Shown here piece after piece: positions 48,395-50,647 of a DNA stretch of 64,000 nt (position 1 is its first letter; every line of letters starts with the position of its first letter). The notes beneath the pieces are model-generated. The model ran no database searches. It saw nothing but the letters and a program-made list of their open reading frames with translations, and was not told the origin of the DNA. A program made the position numbers and the translations under genes. The DNA is from Methanohalophilus levihalophilus (GTDB lineage: Archaea; Halobacteriota; Methanosarcinia; Methanosarcinales; Methanosarcinaceae), in contig NZ_JAGGLK010000002.1 of assembly GCF_017874375.1 (NCBI RefSeq), forward strand, positions 1 through 64,000, written 5' to 3'.

Positions 48395-48835
48395 ATGGAT
48401 TATCAAGGCGGAAATATTGGACGGGTTTTTGTATTGAAAATGGATCATGGCGATAACATACTTGATGAAATCGAAACTTTTGCCAATGCGGAAAGCATCA
48501 CTTCTGCTTTTATATTCATGCTGGGTGCCCTTTCAGAAGGAAATGTTGTTGTTGGGCCCGAGAAAAACCAGATGCCTCCAACTCCCATGTGGTTCCGATT
48601 TAGCGACGCGCATGAAATAATCGGAGTGGGAAATATTTTCAAAGAAAATGGGAAACCAAGAATTCATCTTCATGCTGCTCTTGGAAGAGACGGAAATACC
48701 AATACCGGCTGCATACGAGAGAAGAACGAAGCGTTCATGGTTACTGAAATCCTGGTTCTTGAAGTTGATGGATTGGAAGCTGAACGTGTCCATGATGAAG
48801 AGCGCGGATTCTCACCAATTTGCTTTAGAAAATAA
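48395..48835 (+). CDS. PPC-domain (DUF296) protein
   Basis: 146 residues, all one PPC domain. The fold elements FVLKMDHGDNILDEIETF, SAFIFMLGALSEGNVVVGP, and the histidine-containing HLHAALGRD (a metal site in this family) are visible. Bacterial and archaeal PPC proteins are trimeric; some bind DNA through AT-hooks, which are absent here. It starts 8 bases after the ABC ATPase gene with GAGGTGG upstream. Function unknown. Confidence 0.8.
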   Translation: MDYQGGNIGRVFVLKMDHGDNILDEIETFANAESITSAFIFMLGALSEGNVVVGPEKNQMPPTPMWFRFSDAHEIIGVGNIFKENGKPRIHLHAALGRDGNTNTGCIREKNEAFMVTEILVLEVDGLEAERVHDEERGFSPICFRK

Positions 48836-48849
48836 GAAAAGACACAAGG

Positions 48850-49224
48850 TTACTGCATTTCCTTTAGTCTTTTTATTGTCCTTTTTTTCTCACGGAAATC
48901 ATTTGTTAGTTTATTTTCATGGCACTCTATGTATTTCCTCAGTGGGACAGAAAGACGATAAAATTTAGCCGGGCGGCCGCGCTCACGCGTACTCTTCTCA
49001 TCCCAGCTGTCAATTATTCCCTACTCATTCAAAGGACGCATTGCTACACTCACTTCAGGTTGGTGGAGGCCAGCCACTTTTTCAATCTCCCGTGAAGTAC
49101 GAGGTTCACCGTCAAGTAAACTAACAATAGAAAGTGATTCAATCCTCGAGATTCCTAATGTCTGAAGAAGTGAGGCAATTTCATCCGTGTTGCCGCAGGT
49201 AAAGGTGGTTGAAGCACTTGCCAT
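48850..49224 (-). CDS. Winged-helix regulator with an in-frame amber codon (possible pyrrolysine)
   Basis: Reading from ATG at 49224, 67 codons give a winged-helix N-terminus (TTFTCGNTDEIASLL, SREIEKVAGLHQPEVSVAMR). TAG stands at 49021-49023. The same frame continues for 56 codons to a TAA at 48850: GIIDSWDEKSTRERGRPAKF, then YRLSVPLRKYIECHENKL and a basic helix. The wing motif RGRPAKFYRL, normal for this archaeal HTH family, lies after the TAG, so the true protein is 124 residues. Homologues have an ordinary residue at this spot, as in LxExGW. No other gene here ends in TAG, consistent with pyrrolysine decoding; a nonsense mutation is the alternative. It is divergent from enolase. Confidence 0.75.
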
Positions 49225-49369: not shown

Positions 49370-50647
49370 ATGAGCTACATCGGAGAGGAAAGCAGATTCA
49401 GGATCGAGAAAATCCACGCCAGGGAAATCCTGGATTCTCGGGGTAATCCGACTGTGGAAGTAGATGTGTACACAAACTCAGGTTTTGGGAGAGCAAGTGT
49501 GCCATCCGGTGCGTCTACCGGAAGTAACGAAGCCCTTGAATTAAGGGACAAGGAAGATGATCGTTACAACGGAAAAGGTGTTCTTGATGCTGTTGATAAT
49601 GTCAATACCACCATTGCCAGCGAACTGATGGGCATGGACATCAGAAACCAGCGAGAAATTGATGGTTTGATGATAGCTCTTGATGGTACGGAAAACAAGA
49701 TGACATTTGGAGCAAATGCAATTCTCGGAGTATCCATGGCCGTTGCGAGGGCAGCAGCTGATTCACTGAATGTGCCTTTATACCGATATCTTGGTGGAAC
49801 AAATGCATTTACGCTCCCTGTTCCCACAATGAATGTCCTCAATGGTGGAAAGCATGCTGGCAATGAACTTGCAATTCAGGAATTTATGATCCAGCCAAAA
49901 GAAGCAGATACCTACTCCAATGCGGTTCGTATGGGAAGCGAAACATATCAGGCTCTGGGAAAAATTCTTGAAGATAAATACGGCGCTTCCGCTACAAATG
50001 TTGGGTATGAAGGCGGCTATGCACCACCTATTGATCAGACAACTGATGCACTTGATGCACTTGTTAGTGCAATTGAGGAAGCCGGTTACACAGAGTCGGA
50101 AATTACCATCGGACTTGACGCTGCTGCATCAGAGTTCTTTGATGGTGAAAACTATGCAATCGACGGGAATCTCCTGACGCCAGAAGAGCTTACCGATTTC
50201 TATGTCGAACTTATTGAAACCTATCCTATTCTTTCAATCGAGGATCCTTTCCATGAGGAATCTTTTGAGGATTTTGCTAACCTCACAAATGAGGCATGGG
50301 ACACCATTATTGTGGGAGATGACCTTTTCGTAACCAACGTCTCACGTCTTGCAAAGGGAATCGAAATGGAAGCTGCAAATGCCCTTCTCCTGAAAGTCAA
50401 CCAGATCGGAACGCTTTCGGAGGCTTTCGATGCTGCAAACCTTGCAAGTCGAAGTGGTTACAGTGTAGTAGTAAGTCACAGGTCGGCAGAGACCGAAGAC
50501 GACACCATTGCCGACATTTCAGTTGCGCTTGGCGCCGATCTTATCAAGACCGGAGCTCCTGCAAGAGGAGAAAGAACTGCTAAGTACAACCAACTGCTCA
50601 GAATAGAGGAAGATCTCGGCGACGCTGCAAGATACGTACACCTCTGA
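49370..50647 (+). CDS. eno: Enolase
   Basis: 425 residues from the ATG at 49370, which follows AGGGTGA with good spacing. Earlier in-frame codons back to 49187 encode a hydrophobic, non-family stretch and overlap the divergent regulator. Interconverts 2-phosphoglycerate and phosphoenolpyruvate. Seen are ILDSRGNPTVEVD, VPSGASTGSNEA, the catalytic E in EFMIQPK, metal ligands in GLDAAASEF, SIEDPFHEE and GDDLFVTN, the catalytic K in LLLKVNQIG, and SHRSAETEDD (usually SHRSGETED). The permease gene follows after 14 bases. Confidence 0.94.
   Translation: MSYIGEESRFRIEKIHAREILDSRGNPTVEVDVYTNSGFGRASVPSGASTGSNEALELRDKEDDRYNGKGVLDAVDNVNTTIASELMGMDIRNQREIDGLMIALDGTENKMTFGANAILGVSMAVARAAADSLNVPLYRYLGGTNAFTLPVPTMNVLNGGKHAGNELAIQEFMIQPKEADTYSNAVRMGSETYQALGKILEDKYGASATNVGYEGGYAPPIDQTTDALDALVSAIEEAGYTESEITIGLDAAASEFFDGENYAIDGNLLTPEELTDFYVELIETYPILSIEDPFHEESFEDFANLTNEAWDTIIVGDDLFVTNVSRLAKGIEMEAANALLLKVNQIGTLSEAFDAANLASRSGYSVVVSHRSAETEDDTIADISVALGADLIKTGAPARGERTAKYNQLLRIEEDLGDAARYVHL

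Follow-up and report, generated by a model that had tools for sequence, protein, structure and literature searches.

The window, a stretch of 64,000 nucleotides from Methanohalophilus levihalophilus (genome G000), carries on the minus strand at 48850..49224 a regulator gene of the MreA/TrmB winged-helix family with an in-frame TAG. The frame runs from an ATG at 49224-49222 through 67 sense codons to the TAG at 49023-49021 (codon 68), and then through a further 56 sense codons to a TAA at 48852-48850, just as an earlier note on this DNA had read it; with UAG68 counted as sense, the product would have 124 residues. On one side lies the enolase gene (49370..50647, plus strand), which is transcribed divergently from the regulator, as the earlier note had also remarked, and on the other side lies a gene for a PCC-domain protein (48395..48835, plus strand), which is convergent with it. 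The results showed that this arrangement is kept across the Methanosarcinaceae and marks a conserved slot. The slot (PCC-domain gene, regulator, enolase) was found in other Methanohalophilus genomes and in most of the Methanosarcinaceae enolase loci where it is visible, Methanosarcina among them; slots in relatives were located using enolase as the anchor, and a contig search with the regulator itself gave no match. At two loci, L039 (genome G031) and L066 (genome G016), the neighbouring ABC-transporter ATPase aligned just in pieces, as if frameshifted.

In a phylogenetic tree, the regulator groups with the slot genes of its genus (support 100/94) on a long branch (0.73) and outside the MreA clade proper, and the protein evolves quickly, with 46% identity to its genus-mates. 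Orthology to MreA (MA3302 of M. acetivorans), a global regulator of methanogenic pathways (PMC4158304; PMC12918732), was rejected since the MA3302-like sequence L184 falls in another clade, together with this genome's own copy, L049. Judged by its synteny beside enolase, the regulator is the mreB slot gene of the Methanosarcinaceae. The corresponding gene of M. acetivorans is taken to be MA1671, which has been called mreB (PMC5112694), from synteny and similarity, its place in the tree being weak; the slot sequence of genome G074 (L185, with a deduced locus tag) stands on a long branch with weak support (68/64). The regulator is like both MreA and MA1671 in family, size and winged-helix fold, and its slot matches that of the MA1671-like gene. 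Unlike the regulator of the window, both of these proteins have a sense codon at site 68, and MreA belongs to a separate clade.

The winged-helix domain around codon 68

The earlier note had proposed that the TAG interrupts a complete winged-helix protein of 124 residues, and profile matches bore this out. Against the NCBIfam MreA model NF053756, the read-through protein scored 105 bits over residues 13-121 (E 1.8e-30; cut-off 100), and it also passed Pfam TrmB, with a score of 26.2 over residues 20-85 (cut-off 25.6). Since both matches cross the TAG, the frame represents one domain that is cut by it. A structure model of the regulator, generated with AlphaFold2 from 33 orthologous sequences (mean pLDDT 86.1), contained a TrmB-type winged helix with a C-terminal helix. 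In this model, the first helices and the recognition helix (residues 57-67) are formed by the 67 codons of the N-terminal part (49024..49224, minus strand), and the two wing strands (71-76 and 86-91) and a long C-terminal helix (95-123) by the 56 codons of the post-TAG part (48853..49020, minus strand). The wing motif RGRPAKFYRL, to which the earlier note had drawn attention, does lie 3′ of the TAG. According to the model, the TAG directly follows the recognition helix and precedes the first wing strand, as had been suggested from the sequence, and the 67-residue fragment alone would have neither of the wing strands nor the C-terminal helix. A 56-codon open stretch is expected by chance in roughly 7% of cases and is just mildly unusual taken alone.

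Two other explanations of the TAG were considered and rejected. A split gene with two products was dismissed since the cut separates the recognition helix from the wing, and a sequencing error since GAGTAGGGAATAATT recurs unchanged at the corresponding place in G037, an independent genome. The predicted tryptic peptide across residue 68 is VAGLHQPEVSVAMRPLNE-Pyl-GIIDSWDEK.

Codon 68 in relatives and the frame after the TAG

The nearest relative is G037, a Methanohalophilus MAG whose enolase and PCC-domain protein are 92 and 81.5% identical, respectively, to those of the window. Its copy of the regulator gene (L050/L081, on contig C18 of G037) shares the TAG together with its sequence context, and the TAG is therefore older than the split between the two genomes, which are about 0.7 substitutions apart per four-fold site (K2P). 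This copy is a wrecked pseudogene that has lost most of its N-terminal part and is frameshifted several times on either side of the TAG. In each of the six other genus-mates the gene is intact, encodes 125 residues and has a Lys codon at site 68, and the TAG is thus absent from all the other Methanohalophilus with an intact gene; in the rest of the family, Arg, Lys or Asn occupies the site. Random disruptions after the TAG in a close strain, which the earlier note would have held against its proposal, do occur in G037; its copy, however, is damaged before the codon as well as after it. Given that the TAG is shared with an intact copy in G000, the case of G037 turns into evidence that the G000 copy has been kept. 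The two genomes, with one living and one dead copy that share a TAG, provide a clean natural test of UAG translation.

The dead G037 copy with the same TAG and the fast evolution of the protein are both points in favour of a young pseudogene, in which UAG is a real stop, the 67-residue fragment is the sole product and the rest of the gene has yet to decay. However, the shared TAG is old, with about 0.35 neutral substitutions per site on the G000 branch, and yet the frame and its invariant residues are intact. The G000 copy has acquired zero frameshifts and zero second stops since the TAG arose, and it has kept the family-invariant residues at 9 of 9 positions after the TAG and at 19 of 21 before it. 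When neutral evolution was simulated at 0.35 substitutions per site, the frame stayed open in 16% of cases without indels and in <1% with 5% indels, and the probability that it was open with all nine residues kept was 5.5e-4 without indels and at most 5e-5 with them. All indel events in the pairwise alignment of G000 and G037 (8/8) are on the G037 side. Between the two genomes, post-TAG sites differ at 25% as against 45% at four-fold sites (P 7e-7), and the second codon position differs least after the TAG; both tests are modest, the aligned stretch being short and G037 having probably been functional for part of its branch. By this evidence, which is indirect and comes from a single branch, the post-TAG frame has been kept by selection with UAG in place. 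On sequence comparison, the evidence says that codon 68 is translated.

UAG across the genome

The genome of M. levihalophilus (2.12 Mb in 5 contigs, 98.8% complete) contains tRNA-Pyl (CUA; pylT) and pylS, pylB, pylC and pylD clustered together, so that all five of the pylTSBCD genes, on whose presence the earlier note had made its proposal depend, were recovered by the search. The usual in-frame TAG is carried by two of the three mtmB-family copies.

A further TAG was observed within this cluster. The stop of pylB is TAG in 7/7 Methanohalophilus and in 17/20 other Methanosarcinaceae examined, despite the rarity of TAG as a stop, and it has been noted in three species (PMC2933860). The pylC gene begins immediately 3′ of the pylB TAG (L236, which is C2:320500-322400 of G000; L216-L242), and read-through of pylB here would add 39 codons that overlap pylC.

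The use of TAG was surveyed in two samples of 444 and 400 kb, which together make 844 kb or 40% of the genome. In the first sample TAG ends 10 of 357-359 ORFs of at least 150 aa and in the second 8 of 305, i.e., about 3% of ORFs, and several of these TAGs are internal to longer proteins. Within these 844 kb, TAG occurs inside at least 12 other proteins that look intact, Ftr and CfbD included. The single-copy ftr gene, for formylmethanofuran:H4MPT formyltransferase (C2:92058-92951 of G000, plus strand; L162:8058-8951), has a TAG as codon 38; the six other Methanohalophilus examined, G037 among them, have CAG there, and genomes further out have other sense codons. The single-copy cfbD gene, for the catalytic subunit for coenzyme F430 synthesis (C1:98444-99553 of G000, minus strand; L247:18444-19553), has TAG at codon 229, which is a stop in none of seven genus-mates (0/7). 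Further proteins are continuous over one to three TAGs at C2:136632-137768 (minus), C2:138903-139565 (minus), C2:155185-156180 (plus), C1:120352-123087 (minus), C3:114184-114867 (plus) and C3:248356-249507 (plus) and, as judged by eye only, at C1:47918-48856 (plus), C1:272062-273000 (minus), C3:255440-257038 (minus) and C2:260297-261814 (minus). Among these ten places are proteins of the FemAB/GNAT, SAM methyltransferase, isopropylmalate/homoisocitrate dehydrogenase and geranylgeranyl-reductase family types, in which, as in others, family matches span or flank the TAGs, together with a lipocalin-like protein and a PAS/GAF histidine kinase whose three in-frame TAGs are likewise spanned or flanked by family matches. 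In 360 kb of a genus-mate, G034, TAG ends 4 of 295 ORFs, of which two resemble, by eye, MttB and MtbB with their known Pyl codons.

Taken together, these gene sequences indicate that this organism generally uses UAG as a sense codon and that the regulator is one example of a genome-wide habit; the view of the regulator as an isolated, special case of pyrrolysine use, as in the earlier note, finds no support with so many other apparently intact proteins containing TAG. Since TAG also stands in essential single-copy genes of the same genome, UAG cannot be an effective stop, which argues against the young pseudogene, and we regard that explanation as improbable.

The same two enzymes bear on another suggestion of the earlier note, that the gene is a sensor of the coding state, in which the full-length regulator would be made only with plentiful Pyl-tRNA, as during growth on methylamines, and would couple transcription to the Pyl supply. 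Retention of the TAG over a long branch would be consistent with such a role, as would the finding that expression of mreB (MA1671) in M. acetivorans differs between trimethylamine and acetate (PMC5112694). However, Ftr and CfbD are needed for methanogenesis on any substrate and both require UAG decoding here, so that Pyl-tRNA, to judge from the essentiality of these proteins, cannot be scarce in a living cell; UAG decoding would then take place under all growth conditions, and the sensor finds no support. In addition, the TAG is seen in no other genus-mate with an intact gene, and other genes of the family carry Lys, Arg or Asn at the site, as is expected of a tolerated substitution. We therefore consider a sensor very unlikely. 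An equally small chance is given to a functional Pyl68 by which the full-length MreB-type regulator would track the level of Pyl-tRNA and feed back on methylamine or methanogenesis genes, with core methanogenesis (Ftr, CfbD) being pyrrolysine-dependent.

Probable pyrrolysine at residue 68 and its precedents

The explanation that we favour, with a probability of roughly 0.87 on the sequence evidence, is that UAG68 is read through as pyrrolysine in a working mreB-type transcription regulator. Codon 68 would have turned into UAG in the ancestor that this Methanohalophilus shares with its nearest relative, and tRNA-Pyl would decode it as pyrrolysine to yield the 124-residue winged-helix protein; given that UAG is a general sense codon here, the insertion would need no special signal. 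At a tolerant and usually basic site after the recognition helix, a TAG would be harmless with UAG as sense and so would have drifted. Pyl68 is most likely a near-neutral swap for a basic surface residue and, since relatives have Lys, Arg or Asn at this site, it appears to be a substitution that the protein tolerates, like the one in Thg1. We infer that the residue inserted at UAG68 is pyrrolysine and that the regulator protein is made and binds DNA; by analogy with its Methanosarcina relatives, it would presumably control methanogenesis genes. The loss of the gene in the nearest relative indicates that it is dispensable in the group, which counts against read-through in a working regulator, as does the long branch of the protein.

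In M. acetivorans, the tRNA-His guanylyltransferase Thg1 was found not to require its pyrrolysine, and neutral evolution was proposed (Heinemann et al., 2009, discussed in PMC2933860). As with Thg1, an in-frame UAG occurs here in one lineage of a conserved protein that is not a methyltransferase; unlike Thg1, the protein is a transcription regulator, and the TAG is common to two genomes, in one of which the gene has been lost. Pyrrolysine has also been predicted in a TetR-family regulator of M. acetivorans, with transposases listed too (PMC3639795); this is likewise a DNA-binding regulator with a predicted Pyl, but of a different family and with a different site. In Ca. Methanomethylophilus alvus, many Pyl proteins are predicted and TAG makes up 1.6% of stops (Borrel et al., 2014, PMC4153887). 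The present genome is similar in its low use of TAG as a stop (about 3%), and in having in-frame TAG in conserved genes that are without it in relatives, and differs in that it belongs to a different archaeal order and that other genes are involved, among them ftr, cfbD and the mreB-slot regulator. An archaeal code in which all TAG codons are read as pyrrolysine was reportedly described by Kivenson et al. in Science in 2025. The present use of UAG as a general sense codon is like that code, and this genome may already be covered by their work.

With the regulator and its companions, the list of proteins that apparently contain pyrrolysine grows by a methanogenesis-family regulator and two essential methanogenesis enzymes; such genes would be called truncated or pseudogenes by standard annotation. 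Together, these data suggest that this Methanohalophilus treats UAG as an ordinary sense codon and depends on it for survival.
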